Below are positions 19,524-38,106 of a stretch of DNA of 38,106 nt, piece after piece. How positions within the stretch are numbered: the stretch's first letter is position 1; each line of letters opens with the position of its first letter. Below the pieces are notes generated by a model, which did not search any database, was not told the DNA's origin, and saw only the letters and a list, made by a program, of their open reading frames with translations. Source of the stretch: Lachnospiraceae bacterium (GTDB lineage: Bacteria > Bacillota > Clostridia > Lachnospirales > Lachnospiraceae); the NCBI GenBank assembly GCA_017617005.1, contig JAFZWW010000127.1, positions 1 to 38,106 of the forward strand, given 5' to 3'. Both the position numbers and the translations under genes were made by a program.

Positions 19524-22500
19524 TTATCCGATGGGGGATACGCCGATGGTCATCTCCTCGAGGACATCAAGGAGCACTTTTACGGTATCGAGCGATGTGA
19601 ATGTGGTGATACGGTGCTCACTTGCGCATCTTCTGATGGCAACGCCGTCCTCGTAATGGACACCCGAAAGGATCGCCCTGGTATTGATGACGTAGCTAAC
19701 ATAGCCTGCGCTGATGGAGTCGAGGATCTCCGTGCTTCCCTCGCTGAGCTTGTGGCGGAGCCTGCACCTGATGCCGTGATCCTTGAAATAGAGCGCGGTC
19801 ATGGTTGTTGCCTCGATATTGAAGCCCATGTCATAGAAACGCTTTGCAAGAGGAAGTGCTTCCTCCTTGTCCTCATCCGCAAGGGTGAAGGTGACGGTTC
19901 CGTAATTCTGCAACTTGATTCCGGATGCAACGAGAGCCTTGTACATCGCACGGTGAAGCATCCTGTCATATCCGATGGCTTCGCCCGTGGACTTCATCTC
20001 GGGTGAAAGGTAAGCATCCATTCCCGAAAGCTTCGAGAACGAGAATACGGGAGCCTTTACATACCACTTTTCCCCGCGGGGAGGAGTGAGGTCGGTGATT
20101 CCCTGATCCTTTAGAGAGATTCCGAGGCTTACCCTGGTCGCGATATCGGGAAGAGGATAGCCCGTTGCCTTGGAAAGGAAGGGGACGGTTCTCGAGGATC
20201 TCGGATTAACCTCTATTATGAAGACTTCATCGTTCTTGTCACAGATGAACTGGATATTGAAAAGTCCCTTGATGCCTATGCCGAGGCCCAGTCTTCTCGT
20301 GTAATCCCTTATGGTCTCCTTTACCTTCTCGGAAACGCTGAAGGTGGGATATACGCTTATGGAATCACCCGAATGGATGCCGGTCCTTTCGACAAGTTCC
20401 ATAATGCCGGGGATGAAAACATCTTTTCCGTCGCAGATCGCATCGACCTCGAGTTCCTTACCGCTGATGTATCTGTCGACAAGCACGGGCCTGTCTTCGT
20501 CGATCTCAACAGCGGTCTGAAGATAGTGCCTCAGATCCTTTTCCTTGGAAACGATCTGCATTGCCCTTCCGCCGAGAACGAAGCTGGGACGTACGAGCAC
20601 AGGGTATCCGATGGATTCAGCAGCCTTTACTCCGTCTTCGATATTGGTGACCGCAAGTCCCTTGGGTTCGGGAATATCAAGATCCTCCAGAAGCTTTTCG
20701 AAGCTGTCACGGTTTTCCGCCTTATCGATTGCTTCACAGTCGGTTCCGATAAGCTTTACGCCGAGTGCATGAAGAGGCTCCGCAAGATTGACCGCAGTCT
20801 GTCCTCCGAGAGTCGCGATGACTCCTTCGGGCTTTTCGAGCTCGATTATGTTCATTACATCCTCAACGCACAGAGGCTCGAAATAGAGCTTGTCTGAGGT
20901 TGTGTAATCGGTTGAAACGGTCTCGGGGTTGTTGTTGATAACTATTGCTTCATAGCCGGACCCTTTGATGGTGCGTACTGCGTGAACGGTCGAATAGTCG
21001 AATTCGACACCCTGTCCGATCCTTATGGGACCCGCGCCGAGAACAATAACCTTGGGCTTTTCCGAAACGACGGATTCGTTCTCGCCTTCGTATGTCGAGT
21101 AGAAGTAAGGAACGTAGCTCTCAAACTCGGATGCACAGGTATCGATCATCTTGTAAACGGGGAAGATCTTCTCCTGCTTTCTTAAGTCGAATACTTCCTT
21201 TTCGCTTACTTCCCAAAGTGATGCGATCGCAGCATCGGAAAATCCCATGCGCTTTGCATCATATATGTATGAAGCATCCTTCTTGTGTTCCTTGAGGATG
21301 TTCTCTTCTTCGATGATATTGAAGATCTTGCTCAGGAAGAACATGTCAATGCCTGTTCTTGCACTGATCTCTTCCGCCTTCGTTCCACGTCTCATCAGCT
21401 CGGTGATCGCATAGATGCGGTCGCCGGTCATCTTTAGAACGGGCTCCCAGAGCTCCTCGTCGGTAAAGCCGTCATACTTTGCCATATGAAGATGAATGGT
21501 TCCGCACTCAAGGCTTCTTACAGCCTTGAGAAGACTCTCTTCGAAGCATCTTCCGATACTCATCGTCTCGCCGGTAGCCTTCATCTGTGTTCCGAGGCTC
21601 TGGTTAGCATCGGTGAATTTATCAAAAGGAAAACGGGGCATCTTGGTCACGATGTAATCAAGTGCGGGCTCGAAGCATGCGGGAGTATTTGCAAGCTGTA
21701 TCTCTTCAAGCAAAAAGCCTACGCTTATCTTAGCCGAAACCCTTGCGATCGGATAACCCGATGCCTTTGATGCGAGTGCAGAGGATCTCGAAACCCTGGG
21801 ATTTACTTCGATCAGATAGTACTTGAATGACTTCGGATCGAGTGCGAACTGTACATTGCATCCGCCACAGACCCTGAGCGCTCTGATGAGTTTGAGAGCC
21901 GAGTCACGGAGCATGTGATACTCTTTATCGGTAAGAGTCTGTGAAGGACATACGACGATCGAGTCACCTGTGTGGATTCCGACGGGATCGAGATTTTCCA
22001 TATTACATACGGTGATCGCGGTATCGTTCGCATCACGGATCACTTCGTATTCGATCTCCTTGTATCCCTTTACGCTCTTTTCGACGAGAACTTCGCTTAC
22101 GGGTGAAAGCTCAAGTCCCGCTGCAAGAAGCTCCTTTAATTCATCTTCGTTATCGGCAAATCCGCCACCGGTTCCGCCGAGTGTGAATGCGGGACGAAGG
22201 ACTACCGGATATCCGATCTCCTCAGCGGCTTTCTTACCTTCTTCAATACTGTGTACGACTATCGAGGGAAGAACGGGTTCTCCGAGTCTTTCACAGAGCT
22301 GTTTGAATTCATCCCTGTCCTCAGCCATCTCGATGCTCTTGTAATCGGTTCCCAGAAGTTCGCAGTTGCATTCGGAAAGAATGCCTTTCTTTTCGAGCTG
22401 CATCGCAAGGTTCAATCCGGTCTGTCCGCCAATTCCGGGAAGGATCGCGTCGGGTCTTTCGGTTCTGATTATCCTTGCAACATATTCGAGATTGAGAGGC

Positions 22501-22700
22501 TCCATGTAAACCCTGTCCGCAACCGAAGTGTCGGTCATGATCGTCGCAGGATTGGAATTGCACAGGATGACTTCGTATCCTTCTTCCTTGAGCGCAAGGC
22601 ACGCCTGTGTTCCCGCATAGTCAAACTCCGCAGCCTGTCCGATGACTATGGGACCCGAGCCTATCACAAGTATTTTGTTTATGTCCGTTCTCTTAGGCAT
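19524..22700 (-). CDS. carB: Carbamoyl-phosphate synthase large subunit
   Basis: A 1058-residue protein that makes carbamoyl phosphate from bicarbonate, ATP and glutamine-derived ammonia for pyrimidine and arginine synthesis. It shows two homologous ATP-grasp halves, each opening with a dinucleotide-like loop ([19 protein letters not shown] and [18 protein letters not shown]). The allosteric MGS-like domain is at the C-terminus, ending at the window's carB terminator. Length is standard for bacteria. It lies 47 bases after carA with AGAGG upstream and is the last gene of pyrG-purF-carA-carB. Confidence 0.98.
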
Positions 22701-22747
22701 TTCAAAACCTCTGTAAGAAATTTATTGATTCATTTATGACGCGTATG

Positions 22748-23836
22748 TCATTTATCCATCAGCTTCAGGAATTCATCGAAAAGATACGATGCATCGTGAG
22801 GACCGGGGCAGCTTTCGGGATGGTACTGCACACTGAATATCCTGTCCCTTTCACACCTTACTCCTTCGACCGTTCCGTCCAGGAGATTCTTGTGTGTTAC
22901 GGCAAGTCCGGTTCCCGCAAGTGTATTTTCGTCAACCGCATACGAATGGTTCTGGCTCGTGATGTCAGTTCTTCCTGTCTCCAGATTCTTGACCGGATGG
23001 TTTCCGCCCCTGTGTCCGAACTTGAGCTTGTAAGTCTTCGCTCCGCATGCAAGCGAGATTATCTGGTGTCCGAGGCATATTCCGAATATGGGATATTTTC
23101 CCCTGAGCTGCTTTACAAGCTCTATCGCTTCCTTAACATCCTCGGGATCTCCGGGGCCGTTCGAAAGGAATATTCCGTCGGGCTTGATCGCGGCAACATC
23201 TTCTGCCTTAACGTTCCAGGGGAATACCGTGACCGAGCATCCTTTCTTTAAGAAGGAACGCAGGATGTTTTCCTTCATTCCGAAATCGATCGCTGCGATA
23301 TGGTACTTCGCATCAGTCGAGATATAATTTTCTTTCAGCGGTCTGCTGACCCTTGATACGGCATCGGGCTTAAGGACCGTTTCTTCTATTATCTTAAGAC
23401 CTTCTTCAACAGTGGTGCTCTCGTTTGTGATAAGGGCCTTTCTTGTACCGACGTCCCTTATCTTACGGACGATCTCTCTTGTATCGACTCCCGTGATGCC
23501 GGGAATGCCGAGTTCTTTGAGTGTTTCGGAGAAGGACTTGCTGCTCCTGAAATTTGAAGGCTCGTCATTGTAATCCCTTACGACGAATCCGCCGATCGTG
23601 GGATGGGCGGTCTCGTTATCGTCATCGTTGATGCCGTAATTACCTATAAGAGGATAAGCCATTGTGACAAACTGATCTGTATAGGAAGGATCGGACATGA
23701 TCTCCTGGTATCCGACGGGAGAAGTGTTGAACACGAGCTCGCATACTCTGTCCTTTTCATCCTCACCAAAGCCGTAGCCGACATATTCACTGCCGTCCGA
23801 CATTATCAGTTTTCTTTTCTTACCTCTGTAGATCAT
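22748..23836 (-). CDS. carA: Carbamoyl-phosphate synthase small subunit (glutaminase)
   Basis: A 362-residue glutamine amidotransferase that releases ammonia for CarB. It has an N-terminal CarA domain and a class I glutaminase domain with FGICLGHQI (Cys254), and His339 and Glu341 in QYHPES. A longer frame reaches 23941, but the ATG at 23836 is preferred: it gives the normal [12 protein letters not shown] start, has GGAGG 7 bases upstream, and overlaps the purF stop as TAATG, the hallmark of coupled translation. Confidence 0.97.
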   Translation of the reverse strand: MIYRGKKRKLIMSDGSEYVGYGFGEDEKDRVCELVFNTSPVGYQEIMSDPSYTDQFVTMAYPLIGNYGINDDDNETAHPTIGGFVVRDYNDEPSNFRSSKSFSETLKELGIPGITGVDTREIVRKIRDVGTRKALITNESTTVEEGLKIIEETVLKPDAVSRVSRPLKENYISTDAKYHIAAIDFGMKENILRSFLKKGCSVTVFPWNVKAEDVAAIKPDGIFLSNGPGDPEDVKEAIELVKQLRGKYPIFGICLGHQIISLACGAKTYKLKFGHRGGNHPVKNLETGRTDITSQNHSYAVDENTLAGTGLAVTHKNLLDGTVEGVRCERDRIFSVQYHPESCPGPHDASYLFDEFLKLMDK

Positions 23837-25263
23837 TACCTGGCCTCCGAAAGTTTTTTCTCGAATCTGTCCTTCCTCGGATCTGAGGGTATCTTCGTCG
23901 GGTAATCCCCGTCGAAGCATGCACTGCAATATGTTTCGCACCCGCTCATCTCACCGAGACTTTCTATAGGAAGAAATCCTATCGAATCCGCTCCGGTAAG
24001 TGCGGCGATCTCCTCCGGTGTATGATGGTTTGCTATGAGCTTGTCTTCCGAATCTATATCCACGCCATAGAAGCACGGATGCCTGAAGGGCGGTGAGGAT
24101 ATGCGGAGATGTATCTCCTTTGCTCCCGCTTCCCTCAGGATATTTATTATTCTTTTGCTCGTGGTACCTCTTACAATGGAATCGTCTATGAGAACCACTC
24201 TCTTGCCTTCAAGTACGCTCTTTACCGGACTGAGTTTGATCCTTACGGTATCGGTCCTCTGGTCCTGTGAAGGTGCGATGAAGCTTCTGCCGACATACTT
24301 ATTCTTTACAAGACCTATCTCGTAAGGTATCCCGCTTTCCCTTGAATAGCCTATCGCGGCATCAAGTCCGGAATCGGGAACACCAACGACCACATCGGCT
24401 TCCACGGGATATTCCCTGGCAAGTATCTGCCCGGCCCTTACCCTCGTGTCATGCACCGCTATACAATCTATCACAGAATCGGGTCTTGCAAAATAGATAT
24501 ATTCAAAAATACAGGGACTTTTTTTCGGAGCGGGCTCTCCCATATAGGAAACGGGTTCTGCATTCGGAGTTTCCGACTGGAAAACAAGCATCTCTCCCGG
24601 AAGCACATCCCTTACAAAACTTGCTCCCACAGCAGTCAGGGCACAGCTTTCGGAGGCTACGACCCAGCTTCCGTCCTCACTTTTTCCAAAGCAAAGCGGC
24701 CGGAATCCGTGGGGATCCCGAACCGCGAGCATTTTGGTCGAAGACATCATGACAAGACTGTATGCGCCTTCAAGATATTTAACGGCTGAAAGAACCGCCT
24801 GTTCGATGCTGTCAGTCTTAAGCCTTTCCCTGGTGATCATATAGCAGATGGTCTCTGTATCGCTGGTCGAATGGAAAATAGCACCCGAAAGCTCGAGAGA
24901 ATCGCGAAGATCGAGAGAATTGGCAAGATTTCCGTTATGAGCGAGAGCAAGGTTGCCCTTCTGATGACTGACAACCATGGGCTGGATATTGCTTCTCGTA
25001 TTTCCGCCGGTAGTACCGTATCTGACATGTCCGATGGCCATGCATCCGCCCGGAAGGGCGTTCAGCTGCGTTTCATCAAACACTTCGCCTACAAGTCCGA
25101 GATCCTTATGTGCGGAAAAGACACCGTCATCATTTACGACGATACCGCAGCTTTCCTGACCCCTGTGCTGGAGAGCGTAAAGCCCGTGATACACATCCCT
25201 GGCAATGTCACGCTTCCTGCTTCCGATTATTCCGAATACACCGCACTCTTCATGAATTGCCAT
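23836..25263 (-). CDS. purF: Amidophosphoribosyltransferase
   Basis: A 475-residue enzyme for the first committed step of purine synthesis: PRPP plus glutamine gives phosphoribosylamine. A short propeptide (MAIHEE) precedes the nucleophile Cys7, as in the Bacillus type. Cys residues in [17 protein letters not shown] and TYCSAC match the four ligands of the Bacillus-type 4Fe-4S cluster. The PRPP loop [13 protein letters not shown] is present. Its start lies inside the end of pyrG (14-base overlap) and its stop overlaps carA by one base. The SD (GGGAGG) is about 12 bases from the ATG, longer than usual, so coupling to pyrG translation is likely. Confidence 0.97.
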
Positions 25264-26857
25264 TGTGTTTGCATACCTCCCTGATAAATCCCTTGAAAAG
25301 AGGATGAGCCTTGTCGGGTCTTGATTTGAATTCGGGATGATACTGGACTCCCAGATAGAAAGCGGCTTCGGGAAGTTCCATCTCCTCTACGAGGCGGTTG
25401 TCCGGTGAAGTTCCGGCAAATACCGCACCGGCATTTTCGAACTGCTCCCTGAAATCATTGTTGAACTCGTATCTGTGGCGGTGACGTTCGGATATCTCAT
25501 CCTTTCCGTAAAATTCCTGCAGCTTGCTTCCTTCTTTTATCCTGCAGGGATATGCACCGAGTCTTAAGGTTCCTCCCTTGTCGATCGTGTCGCTCTGTCC
25601 GGGCATGAAGTCTATTACCTTGTGTGCACAGAGCTCGTCGAATTCTCCGGAATTGGCATCGGATATTCCCAGCACGTTTCTCGCATATTCGATGACCGCT
25701 ATCTGCATTCCGAGACATATTCCGAAATAAGGAAGACCGTGGGTTCTCGCATATTTTGCGGAAGTGATCATTCCCTCGATTCCTCTGTCTCCGAAACCTC
25801 CGGGAACGATGATGCCGTCTATTCCCTTAAAGGTTTCCTCCGCATTTTCTTCGGTGATCTTCTCGGAGTCGATCCATCTGATCTCTACCTTTGCTTCATT
25901 TTCGTATCCCGCATGCTTGAGAGCTTCGGCAACGGAAAGGTACGCATCATGGAGCTGTACGTATTTTCCGACAAGACCGACTGTAACGGTCTTATTCAGA
26001 TTCTCGATCCTCTCAACCATTTCCTTCCAGTGATCCAGATCGGGTTCGCCCGCTTCAATACCGAGCTCCCTGCATACGATCCTGGAAAAGCCTGAATCCT
26101 CGAGCATGAGAGGCGCTTCGTACAGAATGGGAAGAGTAATGTTCTCTATTACGCAGTCTTCCTTAACATTGCAGAAATGTGCGATCTTCCTGAAGATCTC
26201 ATCCTCGAGCGGCTCATCGCATCTGAGGATCAGGATGCCCGGAGAGATACCCATTCCCTGAAGTTCCTTGACGGAATGCTGGGTGGGCTTTGATTTATGC
26301 TCATCGGAACCGTGAAGGAAAGGAACGAGAGTTACGTGTATGAAGAGACTGTTCTCCCTTCCGACTTCAAGTGAGATCTGTCTTACGGCTTCTATGAATG
26401 GCTGGGATTCGATGTCACCGACCGTTCCTCCGATCTCTGTGATAACGACATCCGCATTTGTCTTCTTACCTACACGGTAGACAAAATCCTTGATCTCATC
26501 GGTGATGTGGGGAATGATCTGTACGGTCGATCCGAGATACTCACCCCTTCTTTCGCGGTTGAGCACATTCCAGTAAACCCTTCCGGAAGTAAGGTTTGAA
26601 TATTTATTGAGATCCTCATCTATGAATCTCTCGTAATGTCCGAGGTCGAGATCGGTCTCCGCACCGTCCTCCGTAACATAGACCTCACCATGCTGATAGG
26701 GGCTCATGGTTCCGGGATCCACGTTGATATACGGATCCAGCTTCTGCGCGGCAACCTTTAAGCCTCTTGCTTTGAGAAGTCTTCCGAGGGAAGCTGCAGT
26801 TATTCCTTTTCCGAGACCGGATACAACACCGCCTGTTACAAAGATATATTTAGTCAT
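25250..26857 (-). CDS. pyrG: CTP synthase
   Basis: A 535-residue enzyme that aminates UTP to CTP with glutamine. The N-terminal synthetase domain starts [19 protein letters not shown], and [21 protein letters not shown] is typical. The C-terminal glutaminase domain has [11 protein letters not shown] with the catalytic Cys and [10 protein letters not shown] with the His/Glu pair. Length is standard. It heads pyrG-purF-carA-carB. AAAGGCGG precedes the ATG. No clear promoter is visible in the 88 bases after glnN. Neither the run-of-G start nor a separate attenuator known from Bacillus pyrG was found. Confidence 0.98.
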
Positions 26858-26883
26858 AATTACCGCCTTTGTAAGGTATTTCT

Positions 26884-26926
26884 AAAAAACGTTATCGGCC
26901 GGGCAGGCTCAGGGCCTGTCCGACCG
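26884..26926 (-). terminator. Intrinsic terminator after glnN
   Basis: GC-rich 13-position stem (26896-26908 with 26914-26926, one mismatch and one wobble) and a 5-base loop, then ATAACG and six Ts on the minus strand. It separates glnN from pyrG, unless a promoter inside the glnN end makes it a pyrG leader element. Confidence 0.75.
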
Positions 26927-26945
26927 GTTTCATATAGATATCAGA

Positions 26946-29048: not shown

Positions 29049-29075
29049 AGCATGTTCCTCCTTAATTTTGGAAAC

Positions 29076-29124
29076 AAAAAAGACAAAAGCGCCTTTTTTG
29101 TATGTTTACAAAAAAGACGCCTTT
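29076..29124 (-). terminator. Leader terminator (attenuator) of glnN
   Basis: An 18-bp stem (29107-29124 with 29085-29102, two G-U pairs) with a 4-base loop, then GTCTTTTTTG in the minus-strand RNA sense. It lies between the glnN promoter and its SD, so it would block expression unless prevented from folding. Confidence 0.85.
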
Positions 29125-29131
29125 GCCTTTT
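29112..29131 (-). promoter_or_regulatory. ANTAR-type antiterminator hairpin in the glnN leader
   Basis: Minus-strand RNA AAAAGGC-AAAGGC-GUCUUUU: 7-bp stem with hexaloop AAAGGC, fitting the A1/G4 rule for ANTAR-bound hairpins. Loop and 3' strand are the same bases as the terminator's left arm, so only one structure can form. It begins at the predicted transcript 5' end. Confidence 0.75.
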
Positions 29132-29139
29132 CATCTGTT

Positions 29140-29168
29140 AAGATACTACCGTAAATTTCAGTTGTCAA
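29140..29168 (-). promoter_or_regulatory. Promoter of glnN
   Basis: Minus-strand TTGACA (29163-29168), 17-base spacer, TATCTT (29140-29145). Predicted start near 29133. Confidence 0.8.
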
Positions 29169-29218
29169 GAAATAATACGGATAATTTTTTATATATTTTT
29201 ATCCCGTAAAAAGACGGA

Positions 29219-30115
29219 TCAGTTATCCGAACTGAATTCAAAGACTACCGACTGATGTGAAGGATCATTATGATCTCCCCAGCAGATTCCGCCGTCTACA
29301 AAGTAGAAATTAACCGAACCGTCATCATATACCAGATACTGGTTCTCCTGCTCGGGATCAATCATTTCGCACTCCCACATCTCACCGTCATCGCAGAAAA
29401 GAAATTCAGAATCATCATCAAAGTATGTGTAATATTCCCAAATATATCCTATATTGTCAACTATCATGCTCTGGATATGTACATGGTAACTGCCGTCTCC
29501 TTCATCAGTTATCTGCATCCAGTAACTGCCGTCGTCGACTCCCCATATTCCGAGGAAGAAATAAGGCGAAACATCTCCTCTGCCTTCGCCGACGGGCTCG
29601 GAAACAGCTGAATCGTTGCGTACAAAGTGAAGTGCACCGTCCTGGCCCGAGTAGATATCGGTGGGATTCATATCATCAAGATCTGCGGCAAACGATTCCC
29701 AGATATCACCGTTCTCATCATAGAAAGTATACCAGTATGAAGCGGTTCCGTCGGGATGATCTTCGGTTGTGATCTCAATCCTTCCGCTTACAGAGCCGAG
29801 AAGAGACATGTCTTCAAGATCATAATTATATGTGTGACCGTTACAGTAGATGTTGAGATAAGTGGGATCCATTCCGGCATCCGCGTCTGTCCATTCTCCT
29901 ATGAGACCGCTGAGAAGCTCCTGAACCTCATATTCGGATATAACCGGCTGATCATAGTCTTCATCGTATCCGGTTAAATCGTCCTCGTCGTAATCATCTT
30001 CGATGTCATCAATTCCGGTATCCGGTCCGTCTGCGGCGGATTCGCTTCCGCAGCCCGCAAGCAATGCGCCGCTTAAAGCGCATGCACAGATCATCATTAA
30101 CAATTTCTTTTTCAT
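29219..30115 (-). CDS. Acidic lipoprotein of unknown function between the ANTAR gene and glnN
   Basis: A 298-residue secreted lipoprotein with a signal peptide and lipobox LLAGC (Cys22). A very acidic linker of Asp, Glu and Tyr (~25-60) is followed by a strand-rich domain with EWTDAD and several DDG/DGS turns ending near WGDHNDPSHQSVVFE. No family is recognised beyond a general likeness to Lachnospiraceae lipoproteins with lipocalin-like strands. An upstream in-frame ATG at 30169 is rejected because GGGAGG lies just before the ATG at 30115, and that start gives a normal signal peptide. It sits within the nitrogen cluster with no visible link to nitrogen. The 170 bases after it hold the glnN promoter and leader. 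Confidence 0.8.
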   Translation of the reverse strand: MKKKLLMMICACALSGALLAGCGSESAADGPDTGIDDIEDDYDEDDLTGYDEDYDQPVISEYEVQELLSGLIGEWTDADAGMDPTYLNIYCNGHTYNYDLEDMSLLGSVSGRIEITTEDHPDGTASYWYTFYDENGDIWESFAADLDDMNPTDIYSGQDGALHFVRNDSAVSEPVGEGRGDVSPYFFLGIWGVDDGSYWMQITDEGDGSYHVHIQSMIVDNIGYIWEYYTYFDDDSEFLFCDDGEMWECEMIDPEQENQYLVYDDGSVNFYFVDGGICWGDHNDPSHQSVVFEFSSDN

Positions 30116-30146
30116 AAATATTCCTCCCAAAAGAAACTCGGCAATA

Positions 30147-30190
30147 GAGCCGGTAAACACTTTTGACATTCTAACACTGTTTACCGGCTC
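30147..30190. repeat. Perfect 13-bp inverted repeat upstream of the lipoprotein gene
   Basis: Arms GAGCCGGTAAACA (30147-30159) and TGTTTACCGGCTC (30178-30190) with an 18-base loop. It lies between the ANTAR gene stop (30240) and the lipoprotein ATG (30115). It could be an operator for the lipoprotein promoter, or a terminator of the glnA-ANTAR transcript with a poor U-tract. A TAGAAT lies in the loop on the minus strand. Confidence 0.85.
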
Positions 30191-30239
30191 ATAATATATA
30201 CTTTTAGGATAGTCTTTATGAAATTATCGTAGCAGTCCG

Positions 30240-30824
30240 TCATCCGTAGGTTTTCAGGATGTTTTCCGCGGTTTCCTTCTTGCTCAGACACAGATCCATT
30301 GCCTGCTTCTGGATATATCTGTGGGCATTTTCCTCCGTCATGTGACAGCTCTTTATAAGTGCCCATTTAGCCCTGTTGACGAGTCTTATCTCTTCCATCT
30401 TCTCTTCAAGCGAAACGGTCTTTTTCTTGATGCGTCTGAGCCTCTCCCTGATGCTGCACATGACTCCGAGCATCTCATCGAGGCGGTTTACTTCCAGAGG
30501 CTTTTTAATTACCATGACTCCCCTGGGTGTGAGCGAGGAACTTATCTCATCATACATATCGCTCCTTACCAGGATGAGACATACCCTCTCACTTTCGCTA
30601 CAGACGTCGATCGCGAATTTTCTTCCGAAGTCATCGGGAAGAGGAGCGTTGATGAATACAAGGTCGAAGTCTTCATCGACCATTCTCCTCTGTGCCTTGG
30701 CAATGCTGTCCACAACGACTACCGGATCGTATTTTCCTCCGGACAGTTCCTGTCTCAGCGCATTATTTATTTTTTCCGATGCCGATACCAGCAGCACGCT
30801 GTAAACATGTTCAGCAGGTGTCAT
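30240..30824 (-). CDS. ANTAR RNA-binding antiterminator with degenerate receiver domain
   Basis: A 194-residue protein of the AmiR/NasR/EutV class, which binds nascent RNA hairpins and prevents terminators from folding. The receiver-like N-terminus (~5-125) has lost the acidic pocket: strand 1 reads LLVSAS (11-16) instead of carrying Asp-Asp, and the phosphoacceptor position is Asn59 in FINAPLP. The conserved Lys (107 or 108 in IKKPL) remains. A coiled linker (~125-145) leads to the ANTAR domain, with RAKWALIKSCHMTEENAHRYI at about 151-171 and KETAENIL near the end. Its ATG directly follows the glnA stop. Targets are probably the glnA and glnN leaders. Activation by phosphorylation looks impossible; the signal is unknown. 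Confidence 0.92.
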   Translation of the reverse strand: MTPAEHVYSVLLVSASEKINNALRQELSGGKYDPVVVVDSIAKAQRRMVDEDFDLVFINAPLPDDFGRKFAIDVCSESERVCLILVRSDMYDEISSSLTPRGVMVIKKPLEVNRLDEMLGVMCSIRERLRRIKKKTVSLEEKMEEIRLVNRAKWALIKSCHMTEENAHRYIQKQAMDLCLSKKETAENILKTYG

Positions 30825-32042
30825 TTATTTCTCAGCTCTCTTAAGATATGAGGATAAGATCTCTTCGGGCACATACTTCCTGATGAATTCGCTTGTCTGT
30901 GCGAGCTCCGCCGCATCCTTGAGGGATGAAGGAAGCTTGGCAAGTGATGAATTCTTTTCACCGTCAGCGTACAGATTCGTCTCAATGGCTGTGGGAGGAA
31001 CAAGTCCGTTCTCAAGTCCCTCGAGTCCCGCATATATGAGAAGTCCGAATGCAAGATAGGGATTGGCTGAAGGATCGGGGGATCTGAGCTCAGCCCTCAC
31101 ATATTCACCGGAAGCTGCGGGGATCCTGATGAGTGCGGAACGGTTTTCCTTGGCCCATGAGATATACTCGGGTGCCTTGGATGAACCAAGTCTGTTGTAT
31201 GAACCCTTGCTCGGATTAAGGAACAGTGTCATGTCGGCAACATACTTAAGTATGCCTGCAACAACGGGTTCAAAGGATACGTTCTCTTTTCCCTTTGCTA
31301 CGGAGAAATTGATATGCATTCCGTTACCGGCTTTTCCCTCAACGGGCTTGGGTGAAAAGTCAGCAGTTGCACCGTTTCTGTTGGAGATCGCGCTTACAAC
31401 GCTCCTGAAGGTCATCGCATCATCAGCGGACTTGAGCGCATCGCAGTATCTGAAATCGATCTCATTCTGCCCGGGACCTTCTTCATGATGCGAGCTTTCG
31501 GCAAGTATTCCCATCTGCTCGAGAGTTATGCAGATTTCTCTTCTGATATTCTCGCATCTGTCCGCGGGACCGATATCCATATAGCTTGCATTGTCATAAG
31601 GAATGCCGGTATTCTCTCCCTCCATATCGTTACGGAAAAGATAGAATTCGGATTCGGTACCGAAACGGAATGTGTATCCCTTCTTAGCCGCAGCATCGAC
31701 CGCCCTGCCAAGGAATCCTCTCGCATCGCATGCAAAAGGAGTTCCGTCGGGCCATGTGATATTGCAGTACATCCTGACAACCCTTCCGTGCTCGGGTCTC
31801 CAGGGAAGTACGGCAAGCGTCGACGGATCGGGATGAAGGAACAAATCCGATTTGGCATCTATATCAAATCCTTCCACCGACCACGCATCGATGGCAATAC
31901 CCTCGCTGAACGCCCTGTCCAGTTCCGTAGGCATTATCGAAACATTCTTATGTCTTCCGAATACGTCGCAGAATGCAAGACGGATGAACTTGACATCCTC
32001 TTCTTCGACGAACATTTTTACTTCCTGATCTGTGTAATTCAT
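30825..32042 (-). CDS. glnA: Glutamine synthetase type I, short ANTAR-linked form
   Basis: A 405-residue GSI-fold protein, shorter than the usual ~440-470. Conserved parts are FGTESEFYLF (the E-x-E metal pair), HHEEGPGQNEIDF, YNRLGSSKAPEYISWAKENRS, the IRIP Arg loop and AELRSPDPSANPYLAF. The GMH-x-H motif reads GNGMHINFS, so its second His is Asn. It probably makes glutamine from glutamate and ammonia, but its coupling to the ANTAR gene (no gap) also allows a sensing role. GGGAGG precedes the ATG. It has its own promoter, an operator-like palindrome and an attenuated leader. Confidence 0.92.
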   Translation of the reverse strand: MNYTDQEVKMFVEEEDVKFIRLAFCDVFGRHKNVSIMPTELDRAFSEGIAIDAWSVEGFDIDAKSDLFLHPDPSTLAVLPWRPEHGRVVRMYCNITWPDGTPFACDARGFLGRAVDAAAKKGYTFRFGTESEFYLFRNDMEGENTGIPYDNASYMDIGPADRCENIRREICITLEQMGILAESSHHEEGPGQNEIDFRYCDALKSADDAMTFRSVVSAISNRNGATADFSPKPVEGKAGNGMHINFSVAKGKENVSFEPVVAGILKYVADMTLFLNPSKGSYNRLGSSKAPEYISWAKENRSALIRIPAASGEYVRAELRSPDPSANPYLAFGLLIYAGLEGLENGLVPPTAIETNLYADGEKNSSLAKLPSSLKDAAELAQTSEFIRKYVPEEILSSYLKRAEK

Positions 32043-32065
32043 ATTACCTCCCGGTATCTGCTTAG

Positions 32066-32116
32066 AAAAAAAGCGCCCATTTCACCAAAGACCGTTGTCT
32101 TTATGAAATGAACGCC
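32066..32116 (-). terminator. Leader terminator (attenuator) of glnA
   Basis: A roughly 20-bp stem with one bulge, between 32073 and 32116, around an AACG loop. Seven Ts follow on the minus strand (32066-32072). It sits between the glnA promoter and its SD. Confidence 0.88.
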
Positions 32117-32125
32117 ATTGCTCAT
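32108..32125 (-). promoter_or_regulatory. ANTAR-type antiterminator hairpin in the glnA leader
   Basis: Minus-strand RNA AUGAGC-AAUGGC-GUUCAU: 6-bp stem with hexaloop AAUGGC (A1 and G4 present). Part of the loop and the whole 3' strand are also the terminator's left arm, so the two exclude each other. The second pair from the loop is G-U, as in the glnN hairpin, while the third pair differs (A-U here, G-C there). Confidence 0.78.
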
Positions 32126-32150
32126 ATGCAACATTTATACAGCATATGAG
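32121..32150. promoter_or_regulatory. Operator-like palindrome around the glnA -10 element
   Basis: Perfect 9-bp arms CTCATATGC (32121-32129) and GCATATGAG (32142-32150) with a 12-base spacer that contains the -10. One arm shares five bases with the antiterminator stem. Confidence 0.8.
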
Positions 32151-32163
32151 TCCGTTATGTCAA
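32134..32163 (-). promoter_or_regulatory. Promoter of the glnA-ANTAR operon
   Basis: Minus-strand TTGACA (32158-32163), 18-base spacer, TATAAA (32134-32139). Predicted start near 32127. Confidence 0.8.
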
Positions 32164-32195
32164 GAAAAAACATAGAGGCGGTTTGCGCGGTTTTA

Positions 32196-33659
32196 TCAGG
32201 CGTTTCTGTAGCCCATGAGATATTCGTCGACCTCGGCTGCGGCTGCGGTGCCTTCCGCAAGTGCCCATACAACAAGGCTCTGTCCGCGTCTCATATCGCC
32301 TGCAGCAAATACACCGGGGACACTTGTGGAATACTTTCCCTCGGGAGTTGCGACAACGCCTCTGGGGGTCATATCGAGCTTAAAGGATTCGGGAACAAGC
32401 TTCTCAGCACCAATGAAGCCGGCAGCGATAAGGAGCAGGTCACACTTTATCTTCTTCTCAGATCCCTTTACATTTACGAGCTTGCCCTTGTCAAATCCCA
32501 CCTCAACGGTCTCGATCTCCGTTATCTTACCCTTCTTGGAGATGACCTTCTTAACCGTTGTCTTAAAGACTCTGGGATCTTCGCCGAACACTTCCTGTGC
32601 CTCGACATGTCCGTAATCGGTCCTTAAGGTCTTGGGCCACTCGGGCCAGGGATTATTCGCAGCCCTTTCTACGGGGGGCTTGGGCATCATCTCAAGTGCG
32701 GTGACAGACTTGCATCCCATTCTTATGACGGTTCCGATACAGTCGTTACCGGTATCACCACCGCCTACGATGACCACATGCTTATCCTTCGCATCGAATT
32801 TTGCGGGAAGGGATTCTATATCGAGGACATTCCTTGTTGCGGCCTTGAGAAAATCAACGGCAAAGTATATTCCTTCGCATCCTTCCATTCCTTCCGCAGT
32901 AAGTGCTCTGGGCTGTTTTGCGCCGCAGCAGAGGACAACGGCATCATATTCTTTCTTAAGATTGCTTACCTTGACCTTCTCGCCGACATTAACACCGGTC
33001 TTGAAGACTATTCCCATCTCTTCCATGAGTTTCTGTCTTCTGGAAATGACACTCTTGTCAAGTTTCATATTGGGAATGCCGTACATCAGAAGTCCGCCGA
33101 TACGGTCATCTCTTTCATACACAGTTACTGCATGTCCTCTTCTCCTGAGCGCATCGGCTGCGGCAAGTCCGGAGGGACCGCTTCCGATGACGGCGACTTT
33201 CTTACCGCTTTCCTTTATCGGGGCATCACCCTTCATCCATCCGTTCTTGTAACCTTCCTCGATGAGGTAAAGTTCATTATCCCTGACAGTGACGGGATCG
33301 TCGTACTGACCGCATATACATGCCTTCTCACAGAGTGCGGGACAAACGCGTCCGGTGAACTCGGGGAATCTGTTGGTCTTGAGGAGTCTTGCGAGAGCAT
33401 GTGAATCCTCACCCCTGTAGATCGCATCATTCCACTCGGGAATGAGATTGTGGAGAGGACATCCTACTACCATTCCGCTCAGGCTCATTGCCGACTGGCA
33501 GAAAGGAACACCGCAGTTCATGCATCTTGCGCCCTGGCATCTTCTGACTTCCTCGGATGCGAAAGTATGGAATTCCTTGTATCCCTTTATTCTTTCCTTA
33601 GCGGGTATCTCGTTATTTTCTTTCCTAGCATATTCAAGAAATCCTGTCTGTTTTCCCAT
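32196..33659 (-). CDS. gltD: Glutamate synthase small subunit
   Basis: A 487-residue flavoprotein that passes electrons from NAD(P)H to GltB. The N-terminal Fe-S region has CQGARCMNCGVPFCQS and CPALCEKACICGQ cysteines. AVIGSGPSGLAAADALRRRG begins the FAD-binding part (~155), and VVIVGGGDTGNDCIGT marks the NADPH-binding part. Length is standard for GltD. It lies 45 bases after gltB with AGGAAACAGG upstream of the ATG. No clear terminator separates it from the glnA promoter region. Confidence 0.97.
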   Translation of the reverse strand: MGKQTGFLEYARKENNEIPAKERIKGYKEFHTFASEEVRRCQGARCMNCGVPFCQSAMSLSGMVVGCPLHNLIPEWNDAIYRGEDSHALARLLKTNRFPEFTGRVCPALCEKACICGQYDDPVTVRDNELYLIEEGYKNGWMKGDAPIKESGKKVAVIGSGPSGLAAADALRRRGHAVTVYERDDRIGGLLMYGIPNMKLDKSVISRRQKLMEEMGIVFKTGVNVGEKVKVSNLKKEYDAVVLCCGAKQPRALTAEGMEGCEGIYFAVDFLKAATRNVLDIESLPAKFDAKDKHVVIVGGGDTGNDCIGTVIRMGCKSVTALEMMPKPPVERAANNPWPEWPKTLRTDYGHVEAQEVFGEDPRVFKTTVKKVISKKGKITEIETVEVGFDKGKLVNVKGSEKKIKCDLLLIAAGFIGAEKLVPESFKLDMTPRGVVATPEGKYSTSVPGVFAAGDMRRGQSLVVWALAEGTAAAAEVDEYLMGYRNA

Positions 33660-33704
33660 TGTCTTTACCTGTTTCCTATACTCGTTATCGTTTCAGATCC
33701 ACCG

Positions 33705-36700
33705 TTATACTGCAGCGTTTGTGAGTTCCCTGAATGCTTCAAGTTCGGAAGCTTCCCTGGAGATTCCCTGCTCTTCGTACTTTCCGATGGTCCTTATCAT
33801 CTTCTGATAATCCCTTGCAATGATCTTCTTAAATCCGGGAAGTTCATTTTCGAAATTACCGAGTATTTCTTTTCCGAGTTCGGAATCCGTAGCTTTTACA
33901 TAATCCTCAAGGATATCCTTAAGTTCCTCTATGTCGTATTTCTCGGTCACTTCCTCAAGTTCGACCATATCCTTGTTGATCTTGCGGTACAGGCTGTGAT
34001 CCCTGTCGAGTACATATGCGATACCGCCGCTCATACCTGCCGCAAAGTTCTTACCGGTTGCTCCGAGTATTACCGCTCTTCCTCCGGTCATATACTCAAG
34101 ACCGTGATCGCCGCAGCCTTCGGCAACCGCAATGGCACCGGAATTTCTTACGCAGAATCTTTCGCCCGCAACACCGCAGATATATGCTTTACCTGATGTT
34201 GCGCCGTAGAGTGCAACGTTACCGACGATGATGTTCTCAGATGCCTTGAATGGACTCTTCTCGGGAGGAGTAAGAACGAGCTTTCCGCCTGAAAGGCCCT
34301 TACCGAATCCGTCGTTCGCATCACCCTTGAGAGTGATCGTAAGTCCGTGGGGGATGAATGCACCGAATGACTGACCGCCGCCGCCTTCGCAGGTTACATG
34401 GAATCTGTCCTCAGAAAGCTTATTGCAATCCTCGCCGTATTTTCTTACTATCTCGGATCCGAGTATTGTTCCGAAGGTTCTGTCCGTAGAGCTTACCTTA
34501 AGGGATATGGTTGAGTTCTTCTCTTTGGACTTGACCGATTTTTCGAACCAGGGAAGAAGCTTCTTTTCATCGAGAGTCTTTTCGAGTTCGAAGTCAAAGC
34601 TCTGCTTGGGATCGAATCTGTTTTCTTTTTCTGCAGCAAAGCCCTCGGTAAGGATGCGATCGAATGCGATGGTCCTTGCGTGGGGCTGCCTCAGCTGTTC
34701 ACGCTTTCTGAGGCAGTCGGTGCGTCCGATCATTTCATCAACGCTCTTAAATCCGAGTCCCGCCATGATCTCACGAAGCTGCATTGCAACGAATGTCATG
34801 AAGTTCATGAGGTGCTCGGGCTTTCCTGCGAATCTCTTTCTGAGAAGTTCGTTCTGTGTTGCGATACCGACGGGGCAGGTATCCTTGGAGCAGACTCTCA
34901 TCATCATACATCCGAGCGATACGAGCGGAGCTGTTGCAAAACCGAATTCCTCAGCGCCGAGGAATGCAGCGATGGCAACATCACGTCCGGTCATAAGTTT
35001 TCCGTCTGTTTCGATCCTTACCCTTGATCTGAGGCCGCTCTCGATAAGCGCCTGATGTGTCTCGGCAACACCGAGCTCCCAGGGAAGACCTGCGGAGTGG
35101 ACCGAGCTGTAAGGAGCCGCACCTGTTCCTCCGTCATAACCGGAGATGAGAACAACCTGTGCTCCCGCCTTTGCAACGCCGCTTGCGATGGTTCCTACAC
35201 CCGCCTCCGAAACAAGCTTTACGGAGATCCTTGCATCGCGGTTTGCATTCTTAAGATCGTAGATAAGCTGCGCCAGATCCTCGATCGAATAGATATCGTG
35301 ATGAGGAGGCGGTGAGATAAGCTGTACGCCGGGAGTTGAGCATCTTGTCTTTGCAACCCAGGGATATACTTTCTTTGCGGGAAGGTTTCCGCCTTCACCG
35401 GGCTTTGCACCCTGCGCCATCTTGATCTGTATTTCTTTGGCGGAAAGAAGATATTCTTCGGTAACGCCGAAACGTCCGGATGCAACCTGCTTGACCGCAC
35501 TGTTTTTATCTGTTCCGAATCTGTCGGATGCCTCGCCGCCTTCACCTGTATTGGAACGACCGCCGAGTCTGTTCATTGCAATGGCTATGGTCTCGTGTGC
35601 TTCCCTTGAAAGTGAACCGTAGCTCATTGCGCCGACCTGGAATCTCTTGACTATCTCGGATACGGGCTCGACATCATCTATAGAAACGGGTTTTCCTGCG
35701 GGAACGAATTCGAGAAGTCCCCTGAGTGTATGAGGATGAGCCGCATCATCGACAAGTTCGCTGTACTCCTTGAACTTTTCGAAGTCTCCTGTTCTGACAG
35801 CCTGCTGGAGAAGCACGATGGTCTTGGGGCTGTAGAGATGATCCTCCTTGCCCTCACCGCTTCTTAAATTATGGAAGCCTGTGCTGTCGAGCACGGGATC
35901 GATGGGAAGACCCATGGGATCGAATGCCCTGTCATGTCTGTAAGCGATGCCTTCTTCGAGTTCCTTGACACCGATTCCGCCGACCCTGCTGGATACGCCG
36001 GTGAAATATTTATCGATGACTTCATCGGAAAGACCGATCGCTTCAAAAATTCTTGCGGACTGATATGACTGGATGGTGGATATACCCATCTTGGCTGCGA
36101 TCTTAACGACACCGGAAAGAAGTGCATGATCGAAATCATCGATTGCGGTATGAAGATCCTTGTCCAGAAGTCCGAGGGTAATGAGTTCTCCGATACATTC
36201 ATGTGCAAGATAAGGATTTACCGCACGTGCACCGAAGCCGAGGATACATGCGGTCTGATGTACATCCCTTACCTCTGCGGTCTCGAGGATGAGTGATACC
36301 GCAGTTCTCTTCTTGGTATGTACGAGATGCTGCTCAACTGCGGATACCGCAAGGAGTGCGGGAATGGGTACATGGTTTTCGTCAACTCCCCTGTCGGAAA
36401 GAATGACGACATTCGCACCGCCCGATACCGCACGGTCAACGGACAGATAGAGCTGCTCAACCGCACGTGAAAGTGAGGTGTGCTTATAATATAGAAGTGA
36501 TACGGTTTCGGTCTTGAAGCCCTTGTGCTTCATCGAGCGGATCTTCATGAGATCCACGCCGGTGAGAACGGGGTTGTTTACTTCGAGCACGGTGCAGTTC
36601 TCACTCTTTTCACTTAAGAGATCGCCGTCGGATCCAATGTAGACCGTAGTGTCGGTAACGATCTTCTCACGGAGTGAGTCGATGGGAGGATTGGTTACCT

Positions 36701-38106
36701 GCGCAAACTGCTGCTTGAAGAAACCATAGAGCAGGGGATGATTTTCCGAAAGGGATGCAAGAGGAACATCATGCCCCATCGATACGGTAGGCTCTGCGCC
36801 GTTTGTTGCAGCCTCGAGGATATATGACTTAACCTCTTCGTAGCTGTAACCGAATACCTTGTAAAGTCTGTCACGCTCTTCCTGGGTGTGTGAAGGCACC
36901 TGATGATTGGGAATGACAAGGTCTTTTAAGTGGATGAGGTGTGCATCGAGCCACTCACCGTAAGGATTTGATGATGCATAGAATTCCTTGCACTCGTCAT
37001 CGGAGATGATCCTCTTTTTCTTCGTATCAACGAGGAGCATTCTTCCGGGAGTGAGTCTTGATTTCTTGATGATGTGCTCGGGTGCGATATCGAGTACGCC
37101 TACCTCCGAAGAAAGGATGAGGCGGTTATCATCGGTAATATAATATCTGGAAGGCCTGAGTCCGTTACGGTCAAGAGTTGCACCGAAAAGTTCGCCGTCC
37201 GTGAAAAGGATCGCGGCGGGACCGTCCCAGGGTTCCATCATTGTTGCATAATAATGGTAGAAATCCTTCTTGGATTCGCTCATGAACCGGTTGTGCTTCC
37301 AAGGCTCGGGGATGAGTGCCATCATTGCGAGCGGAAGATCCATTCCGTTCATGTAAAGGAATTCGAGAGTATTGTCGAGCATTGCGGAATCGGATCCGCT
37401 TGCAGAGATGACCGGATAGATCTTGCTCGCGTCCTCTTCGAGAAGCTTGGAGTGCATTGTCTCTTCACGTGCAAGCATTCTGTCGGAGTTGCCGCGGATG
37501 GTATTGATCTCACCGTTATGTGCGATGAATCTGTAAGGATGTGCTCTTTCCCAGCTGGGAAGAGTGTTGGTCGAGAATCTGGAGTGGACAAGTGCCACTG
37601 CGGAAAGATAATCCTTGCTCTGAAGATCGTCGTAGAATCTTCTGAGCTGGCCTACAAGGAACATTCCCTTGTAAACGATGGTGCGTGATGAAAGCGAGCA
37701 GATGTATGTATCATCGGATGACTGCTCGAACTCTCTTCTTACAACATAAAGCCTTCTGTCAAAATCAATTCCCTTTTCGATCTGAGCAGGCTTTTTAAGG
37801 AAGCACTGCCAGATCGAGGGCTGACAGTCGAGTGCTCTCTTTCCGAGGATCTCGGGATGAATGGGAACCTCTCTCCAGCCGATCGTATCTATTCCTTCTT
37901 TTCCCGCGATAACTTCAAAAAGTCTCTTTGCAAAGGTTCTCTTAAGTTCATCCTGGGGAAGGAAGAACATACCGATACCGTACTCGCCTGCATTCCCGAT
38001 CTTCATTCCGATCTTCTTACATGCGGCAGAAAAGAAAGGATGGGAGATCTGCAGCAGGATTCCTACACCGTCTCCTACCTTGCCGCTTGCATCCTTACCT
38101 GCTCTG
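33705..38106 (-). CDS. gltB: Glutamate synthase large subunit, 5' end beyond the window
   Basis: About 1466 residues of a roughly 1500-residue protein are present. It converts glutamine and 2-oxoglutarate to two glutamates. The frame stays open past an internal ATG at 38006 to the edge and reads DASGKVGDGVGILLQISHPFF, the usual GltB sequence a short way after the catalytic N-terminal Cys; that Cys is outside. Domains in order: class II amidotransferase, central domain, FMN domain (GEGGEASDRFG, and CMMMRVCSKDTC for the 3Fe-4S cluster), and the C-terminal GxGxG beta-helix (GGGGQSFGAFIPHG). It is followed by gltD on the same strand. Its promoter and leader cannot be seen. Confidence 0.98.
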   Translation of the reverse strand, partial: RAGKDASGKVGDGVGILLQISHPFFSAACKKIGMKIGNAGEYGIGMFFLPQDELKRTFAKRLFEVIAGKEGIDTIGWREVPIHPEILGKRALDCQPSIWQCFLKKPAQIEKGIDFDRRLYVVRREFEQSSDDTYICSLSSRTIVYKGMFLVGQLRRFYDDLQSKDYLSAVALVHSRFSTNTLPSWERAHPYRFIAHNGEINTIRGNSDRMLAREETMHSKLLEEDASKIYPVISASGSDSAMLDNTLEFLYMNGMDLPLAMMALIPEPWKHNRFMSESKKDFYHYYATMMEPWDGPAAILFTDGELFGATLDRNGLRPSRYYITDDNRLILSSEVGVLDIAPEHIIKKSRLTPGRMLLVDTKKKRIISDDECKEFYASSNPYGEWLDAHLIHLKDLVIPNHQVPSHTQEERDRLYKVFGYSYEEVKSYILEAATNGAEPTVSMGHDVPLASLSENHPLLYGFFKQQFAQVTNPPIDSLREKIVTDTTVYIGSDGDLLSEKSENCTVLEVNNPVLTGVDLMKIRSMKHKGFKTETVSLLYYKHTSLSRAVEQLYLSVDRAVSGGANVVILSDRGVDENHVPIPALLAVSAVEQHLVHTKKRTAVSLILETAEVRDVHQTACILGFGARAVNPYLAHECIGELITLGLLDKDLHTAIDDFDHALLSGVVKIAAKMGISTIQSYQSARIFEAIGLSDEVIDKYFTGVSSRVGGIGVKELEEGIAYRHDRAFDPMGLPIDPVLDSTGFHNLRSGEGKEDHLYSPKTIVLLQQAVRTGDFEKFKEYSELVDDAAHPHTLRGLLEFVPAGKPVSIDDVEPVSEIVKRFQVGAMSYGSLSREAHETIAIAMNRLGGRSNTGEGGEASDRFGTDKNSAVKQVASGRFGVTEEYLLSAKEIQIKMAQGAKPGEGGNLPAKKVYPWVAKTRCSTPGVQLISPPPHHDIYSIEDLAQLIYDLKNANRDARISVKLVSEAGVGTIASGVAKAGAQVVLISGYDGGTGAAPYSSVHSAGLPWELGVAETHQALIESGLRSRVRIETDGKLMTGRDVAIAAFLGAEEFGFATAPLVSLGCMMMRVCSKDTCPVGIATQNELLRKRFAGKPEHLMNFMTFVAMQLREIMAGLGFKSVDEMIGRTDCLRKREQLRQPHARTIAFDRILTEGFAAEKENRFDPKQSFDFELEKTLDEKKLLPWFEKSVKSKEKNSTISLKVSSTDRTFGTILGSEIVRKYGEDCNKLSEDRFHVTCEGGGGQSFGAFIPHGLTITLKGDANDGFGKGLSGGKLVLTPPEKSPFKASENIIVGNVALYGATSGKAYICGVAGERFCVRNSGAIAVAEGCGDHGLEYMTGGRAVILGATGKNFAAGMSGGIAYVLDRDHSLYRKINKDMVELEEVTEKYDIEELKDILEDYVKATDSELGKEILGNFENELPGFKKIIARDYQKMIRTIGKYEEQGISREASELEAFRELTNAAV

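Follow-up and report, generated by a model that had tools for sequence, protein, structure and literature searches.

How is glnA switched on in a bacterium whose glnA leader encodes both a strong terminator and, overlapping it, a small hairpin with the loop of a known regulatory motif? The question is raised by a stretch of 38,106 nucleotides (nt) from a Lachnospiraceae bacterium (GenBank assembly GCA_017617005.1, contig JAFZWW010000127.1), which in its full length is referred to here as the window. The hairpin carries a hexaloop with A at position 1 and G at position 4 (A1/G4), the known recognition motif of ANTAR proteins, and the gene after glnA encodes such a protein. It is quite probable that the leader belongs to a nitrogen/glutamine regulon controlled by ANTAR antitermination through a single hexaloop; we infer that the protein binds the hairpin, that binding turns the genes on, and what the signal is.

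The first-pass annotation of this DNA had described a promoter, an A1/G4 hairpin with a stem of 6 base pairs (bp) at the transcript start, a terminator whose left arm is the 3' half of that hairpin, and Us just before the Shine-Dalgarno sequence, together with an ANTAR gene next to glnA, and all of this is confirmed. The hairpin, an A1/G4 hexaloop on a stem of at least 3 bp, sits at the predicted start of the transcript, and many relatives have promoter-like sequence at the same place as the glnA promoter. The terminator is 18 long with one mismatch in an ungapped scan, and has about 20 pairs with one bulge in an energy fold. Because GGCGUUCAU is common to the hexaloop hairpin, where it forms the loop end and the 3' arm, and to the left arm of the terminator, the two structures are mutually exclusive. 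The fold of the 108-nt leader has a z-score of -5.25, with 0 of 200 shuffles equally stable. Left free, 69 nt of the leader fold into the terminator at -25.1 kcal/mol; with the hexaloop forced the energy is -12.3 kcal/mol, a cost of 12.8 kcal/mol, and the remaining hairpin is shorter and lies away from the Us. The terminator is far more stable than the hexaloop fold, and the hairpin thus needs help to win, as would be expected of a protein-stabilised antiterminator.

A 9-bp inverted repeat (32121-32150) flanks the -10 box of glnA and, in transcripts that read through, would form in competition with the hexaloop hairpin. As a candidate operator it was rejected, because the close relatives L024 and L025 lack its left half.

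One explanation of such a leader would be an ordinary constitutive terminator with a chance hexaloop-like repeat in its left arm, and terminators are often self-similar, so that short alternative hairpins are common. Against this stand the placement, the conservation and the genomic distribution of the element, which make coincidence very improbable. A second copy of the hexaloop-terminator arrangement, overlooked in the earlier annotation, precedes the type III glutamine synthetase gene glnN, and its hexaloop is likewise A1/G4 on a stem of at least 3 bp. Overlaps between an A1/G4 hexaloop (stem of at least 5 bp) and a U-tailed terminator number two in the window on both strands, and both stand before genes for glutamine synthetase. 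Between them, 20 Markov simulations of a single strand produced one such overlap.

Both exclusive structures are conserved. In the loci fetched from relatives, the element is present in 22 of 24 distinct glnN leaders. Among 25 leaders selected for a hexaloop and a terminator, every loop has A at positions 1 and 2 and G at position 4, and every closing pair is C-G (25/25), A1 and G4 being criteria of the selection, A2 and the closing pair not. In 23 of these sequences, which were chosen because they pair and whose covariation counts are biased to that extent, the hexaloop stem has 96.4% of its cells paired and 28 double-change cells (shuffle mean 9.3), and the terminator 94.2% and 66 (shuffle mean 20.8); the compensatory changes in both are well above shuffles and slid controls. 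The seed alignments leave out, by eye, the spurious L069 and near-duplicates, and A4 also leaves out L110, misplaced by MAFFT. A less biased test used a model holding the terminator pairs only and 71 distinct non-seed matches, that is, matches whose core differs from that of every seed, with relatives of seeds counted in: the innermost four hexaloop pairs were all formed in 82%, compared with 39% (maximum 51%) after 3' arms had been exchanged among the sequences.

The genomic distribution of the element points to nitrogen assimilation. In the window's own genome, a covariance model found the glnN, gltB, glnA-ANTAR and amtB leaders at E<=4.4e-5, so that the four best places all lie on ammonium-assimilation genes; the opposite strand of the palindromic glnN leader followed at E=1e-4, and the next new place at E=0.15. 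The model was used in place of a plain DNA pattern for the hairpin, which gave 87 matches in this genome at up to one mismatch and was too unspecific. The gltB and amtB leaders both lie on contig C121. In genome G027 (L053), the glnN, glnA, gltB and amtB elements all fall within about 11.3 kb. Across genomes, 138 model matches were entered once weaker opposite-strand partners and duplicate loci had been left out by hand; 134 of them are distinct, and 135 of the 138 could be anchored. The downstream units of the 119 distinct hexaloop matches, named from peptide signatures with tandem units counted apart, are glnN (37), amtB (13), glnA (10), split glutamate synthase (10), pyrG (8), gdhA (7) and gltB (7), with twelve in nine other groups of 1-2, seven unassigned and eight without an open reading frame (ORF), counts that are biased by the many loci fetched around glnA-ANTAR. 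In other genomes, matches also precede purF, guaA, carA, asnB, purA and purC. The targets thus named appear to be mostly makers and users of glutamine, and a coherent nitrogen/glutamine regulon is supported by these assignments.

Three further observations concern individual targets. The amtB leader of the window's genome (contig C121, L170 6107-6223) has two hexaloop-terminator units in tandem, as do glnN leaders in L077, L089 and L123; a serial pair of switches would give tighter control. The amtB ORF (contig C121, L133 and L135) runs past the transporter into an apparent fused PII-like domain, recognised by eye. In L197, from genome G150, a hexaloop-terminator precedes a nifB-like gene, hinting at ANTAR control of nitrogen fixation there.

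The candidate reader of these leaders is the ANTAR protein encoded beside glnA, the start codon of which follows the glnA stop codon immediately. Its ANTAR domain (PF03861) scores 53.9 bits (1.5e-14) against a curated cut-off of 27.3, its Response_reg match (5e-6) is below the cut-off of that family, and Pfam shows only these receiver-like and ANTAR domains. It is the sole PF03861 match found in its own genome, which is 86.8% complete. In 76 of the best 80 loci, which come from mostly clostridial genomes, many of them sampled from gut or rumen, glnA is found no more than 120 nt upstream of the ANTAR ORF; the remaining four have their ANTAR gene at the edge of a contig. No histidine kinase-like ORF was found among the ORFs adjacent to glnA-ANTAR. 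Asn59 aligns with the receiver Asp of Rv1626, and the phospho-acceptor Asp expected of an EutV-type response regulator is thus absent. The position is Asn in 97 of 104 glnA-linked ANTAR proteins from the fetched loci, near-duplicates included, and His168, Met176 and Lys153 are kept in 104/104 of the same set. A glnA-ANTAR gene pair with a link to nitrogen control also occurs in Clostridium saccharobutylicum, where the ANTAR gene is known as NitR. In an alignment with PDB 6wsh, which we take to be EutV (on our own reading, the chain is numbered two residues off from the paper), Met176 matches EutV Met172, and His168 is found at the place of EutV Tyr164. This tyrosine stacks on G4 of the hexaloop (PMC8934654).

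Element and ANTAR gene tend to occur together. With an element threshold of E<=0.01 and ANTAR matches counted above the Pfam cut-off (G107, below it, was counted negative), an ANTAR gene is present in 63 of the 73 class genomes with an element match versus 36 of the 123 without, in a sample of 196 (Fisher p=2e-15). Among the 59 nearest genomes, counted by reading, matches occur in 37/43 ANTAR-positive versus 6/16 ANTAR-negative genomes.

It could still be that the attenuator is read by some other RNA-binding protein, or that the RNA itself senses glutamine or ammonium. In the class sample, real-looking elements without a detected ANTAR gene occur in four genomes, of which three are 96% complete or better. 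On the other side are the co-occurrence just described and the loop itself, in which A1 and G4 occupy the model loop columns in 135/138 matches, the seeds having been selected for A1/G4. Rfam gave 0 matches in the window at gathering score; at E<=5 there were three, all to microRNA families, far below their cut-offs and of no relevance. We regard a different reader, or a sensing RNA, as improbable.

The number of hexaloops is the second point on which this locus parts from precedent, since published ANTAR targets have two, known as P1 and P2 (PMC3369931, PMC3369936, PMC8164766, PMC8934654). The window's leaders might then be canonical dual-hexaloop targets in which the first hairpin has been missed, either because transcription starts further upstream or because P1 is degenerate. 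The promoters argue otherwise. A promoter scoring at least 10/12 stands at the expected place in 79 of the 119 distinct matches versus 46 of 2235 background positions, and in 72 of these 79 leaders 4-13 nt separate the end of the -10 box from the stem; in the window, the predicted distance is 8 nt (glnA) and 7 nt (glnN). Should these promoters be correct, transcription would begin at the hairpin and P1 could not be accommodated. The remaining 40 of the 119, which lack a promoter scoring 10/12 at the expected place, would leave room for a hidden first hairpin, and some of them are the second units of tandems.

Direct searches for P1 agree with the promoters. No second hexaloop was found a short linker upstream at the glnA and glnN leaders of the window. 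P1-like hairpins (G4, stem of at least 4 bp, within 25 nt upstream) are at background, with 16/110 versus 20, 15, 11 and 14 in four upstream controls, and the stricter A1G4 rule gives 7/110 versus 8, 4, 2 and 5, near background too; further rules gave the same picture. The A1 requirement was dropped once the data had been seen: in L249, read by eye, the P1 loop begins with G, and earlier scans for dual motifs in 30 eutP-type loci, with A1 demanded of both loops, had yielded nothing convincing. The same P1 code finds convincing pairs in three of seven neighbourhoods of other ANTAR genes, L279 (eut), L284 and L285 (both glnA), and no convincing pair in L280-L283, of which L281 and L282 have Asp receivers and L280 and L283 have Asn. 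A few of the 16 P1-like cases look real: L205 and L218, both from Asp-receiver genomes, and perhaps L211. Taken with the promoters, a missed first hairpin seems unlikely for the glnA leader, even though true dual motifs do exist in relatives: before glnA in G061 and G180 (L284, L285) and before amtB in G061 (L205), where the ANTAR protein has an Asp receiver, before glnN in G152 (L218), and possibly in G251 (L211).

Receiver type and hairpin number may go together, as a survey of 31 genomes suggests. Among Asp-type receivers, P1 is convincing in G152 and G061, possible in G150 and found by the script in neither G095 nor G122, and G149 has a single hexaloop; the Asp-type G180 and G245 come from the ANTAR-neighbourhood search for P1. 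Among non-Asp receivers, P1-like hairpins were flagged in G135, G242, G175, G251, G237 and G084, most of them over the promoter or between tandem units. G139 and G240 have an Asn receiver, their leaders lying outside the survey. The correlation is suggestive; the sample is small, and G149 and perhaps G251 are exceptions to it.

Several results weigh against single-hexaloop ANTAR antitermination as the explanation of these leaders. Work on EutV finds two hexaloops to be needed for antitermination in vivo (PMC8934654). The transcription start of glnA is a prediction from its consensus promoter, and a promoter and terminator scan of positions 29000-34000 listed neither the glnA promoter nor the glnA terminator while listing the glnN pair; the promoter was passed over because TATAAA breaks the scan's T-at-position-6 rule, and the terminator probably because of its bulge. 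In the fetched loci, the element lies within 300 nt in only 14 of 91 distinct glnA leaders, L069 among the 14 looking spurious, and many of the other glnA genes seem to sit inside a longer operon. The bias of the downstream-gene counts belongs here too. Finally, 10 of the 73 genomes with a match have no ANTAR gene over the cut-off. Five of the ten (G050, G098, G134, G174, G176) have no hexaloop and G166 is ambiguous, while G101 (97% complete), G097 (96%, two elements), G070 (83%) and G173 (100%, weak) have the real-looking elements mentioned above, on nitrogen genes. Elements are likewise present in the genus mates G006, G012 and G022 (90, 83 and 68% complete), where the search turned up no ANTAR gene. 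The ANTAR genes of such exceptions may have been lost in assembly gaps, or another protein may read the element.

If antitermination through a single hexaloop is correct, control of glnA would proceed as follows. By default, the polymerase would make the leader, the long terminator would fold, and transcription would stop before glnA. When active, the ANTAR protein would bind the one A1/G4 hexaloop hairpin with which the nascent RNA begins; the bound hairpin would withhold the base of the left terminator arm, and the shortened hairpin would stay away from the U tract. The polymerase would then read into glnA and the ANTAR gene, giving positive feedback, and the same switch would act in trans on gltB-gltD, amtB and glnN, in the last case perhaps on pyrG-purF-carAB as well. 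The hairpin would be the first structure out of the polymerase and be followed by a long terminator arm, an order that may give the protein enough time. The signal is probably low glutamine or ammonium. More tentatively, and with considerable doubt, one could envisage a distinct class of ANTAR protein, with an Asn pseudo-receiver and His at the G4-contact position, that has shed phosphorylation and the recruitment hairpin, captures one 5' hexaloop and, in many gut and rumen Clostridia, controls the uptake of ammonium, the synthesis of glutamine and glutamate and the enzymes that use glutamine. Made together with glnA, such a regulator might take its reading of nitrogen status from glutamine synthetase itself; GlnR of low-GC Gram-positive bacteria does so via the feedback-inhibited enzyme (PMC9249791), whereas the ANTAR protein would act on RNA. 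One ANTAR protein acting via leader RNAs is a candidate route to the control of nitrogen assimilation in these bacteria.

The features of the window are collected in Table 1. The names pyrG, purF, carA and carB come from sequence signatures, all four presumably being glutamine-dependent enzymes, and those of gltD and gltB have the same basis. The genes glnN-pyrG-purF-carA-carB (19524-29048) may form a single operon governed by the glnN switch. A gltB start very similar to the cut gltB of the window (37950-38106) stands at the end of contig C121, and the two contigs may adjoin in the genome.

Table 1. Leader elements and genes of the window, with positions counted from its first letter.
Feature	Position	Strand	Details
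glnA promoter, TTGACA-18-TATAAA	32134..32163	(-)	TTGACA 32163-32158, TATAAA 32139-32134; consensus match
glnA antiterminator hexaloop hairpin, AUGAGC-AAUGGC-GUUCAU	32108..32125	(-)	6 bp, one G-U; loop 32119-32114
glnA intrinsic terminator	32066..32116	(-)	left arm overlaps hexaloop hairpin; arms 32116 to 32072; U7 tract 32072-32066
Shine-Dalgarno GGGAGG and glnA start codon	from 32052; ATG at 32042	(-)	
glnA, type I glutamine synthetase, 405 amino acids	30825..32042	(-)	Pfam Gln-synt_C 8.8e-86, Gln-synt_N 3.7e-22
ANTAR regulator, 194 amino acids	30240..30824	(-)	pseudo-receiver (Asn59) and ANTAR; Pfam
glnN promoter, TTGACA-17-TATCTT	29140..29168	(-)	listed by promoter scan
glnN antiterminator hairpin, GAAAAGGC-AAAGGC-GUCUUUUU	29111..29132	(-)	loop 29124-29119
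glnN leader terminator	29080..29129	(-)	23 pairs; model R1 64 bits
glnN, type III glutamine synthetase, 700 amino acids	26946..29048	(-)	Pfam GSIII_N 5.9e-82
pyrG, purF, carA, carB	19524..26857	(-)	follow glnN on the same strand; names from sequence signatures
gltD and gltB	32196..38006	(-)	gltB cut by window edge

How, then, does this system compare with those already known? The first-pass annotation had taken the layout to be that of EutV and related ANTAR antitermination. What stands is the A1/G4 hexaloop that excludes a terminator, both structures covarying and A1, A2 and G4 being kept in related leaders, and with it the nitrogen genes and the ANTAR link; the EutV layout as such does not, since P1 is absent and the receiver Asp missing. 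The glnA system would work like the antitermination of EutV, AmiR and NasR, with one hairpin where those have two and without the phospho-receiver of EutV. With EutV of Enterococcus faecalis and its eut antiterminator RNA (P1 and P2), it shares the A1/G4 hexaloop, a hairpin whose 3' half is the left arm of the terminator, a receiver-like domain joined to ANTAR, and nitrogen-related genes. Unlike the EutV targets, the glnA leader has one hexaloop, at the predicted transcript start, and its regulator differs from EutV in having no phospho-acceptor Asp, His in place of Tyr164, and no adjacent histidine kinase-like ORF. AmiR (amiE) and NasR (nasF) share the ANTAR output and attenuation, AmiR also having a pseudo-receiver (PMC3369936). 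Their leaders carry P1 and P2, and AmiR is controlled by AmiC and NasR through its NIT domain, whereas the glnA-linked protein has, by Pfam, receiver-like and ANTAR domains only.

The ANTAR regulons predicted by Ramesh et al. (2012) comprise the same classes of gene, namely glutamate and glutamine synthases, ammonium transporters and P-II, and their model required two A1/G4 hairpins, which places single-hexaloop leaders outside it (PMC3369931). Beyond the papers cited here, none was found that treats the control of clostridial glnA by ANTAR proteins, and in the open-access literature, subscription papers and supplements being outside its scope, a search for 'single hexaloop' together with ANTAR returned only PMC8934654. 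There, Walshe et al. (2022) narrowed the minimal ANTAR site down to a single hexaloop and called for a bioinformatic search for such sites; why antitermination takes two hexaloops when an ANTAR dimer grips one at a time is, in that paper, an open question (PMC8934654). If the reading given here is true, single-hexaloop attenuators on core nitrogen genes of many clostridia make that question directly testable. In the Walshe model, P1 recruits the protein and single sites are reserved for cases without a time limit set by transcription (PMC8934654), whereas the single hexaloops described here stand in transcription attenuators.
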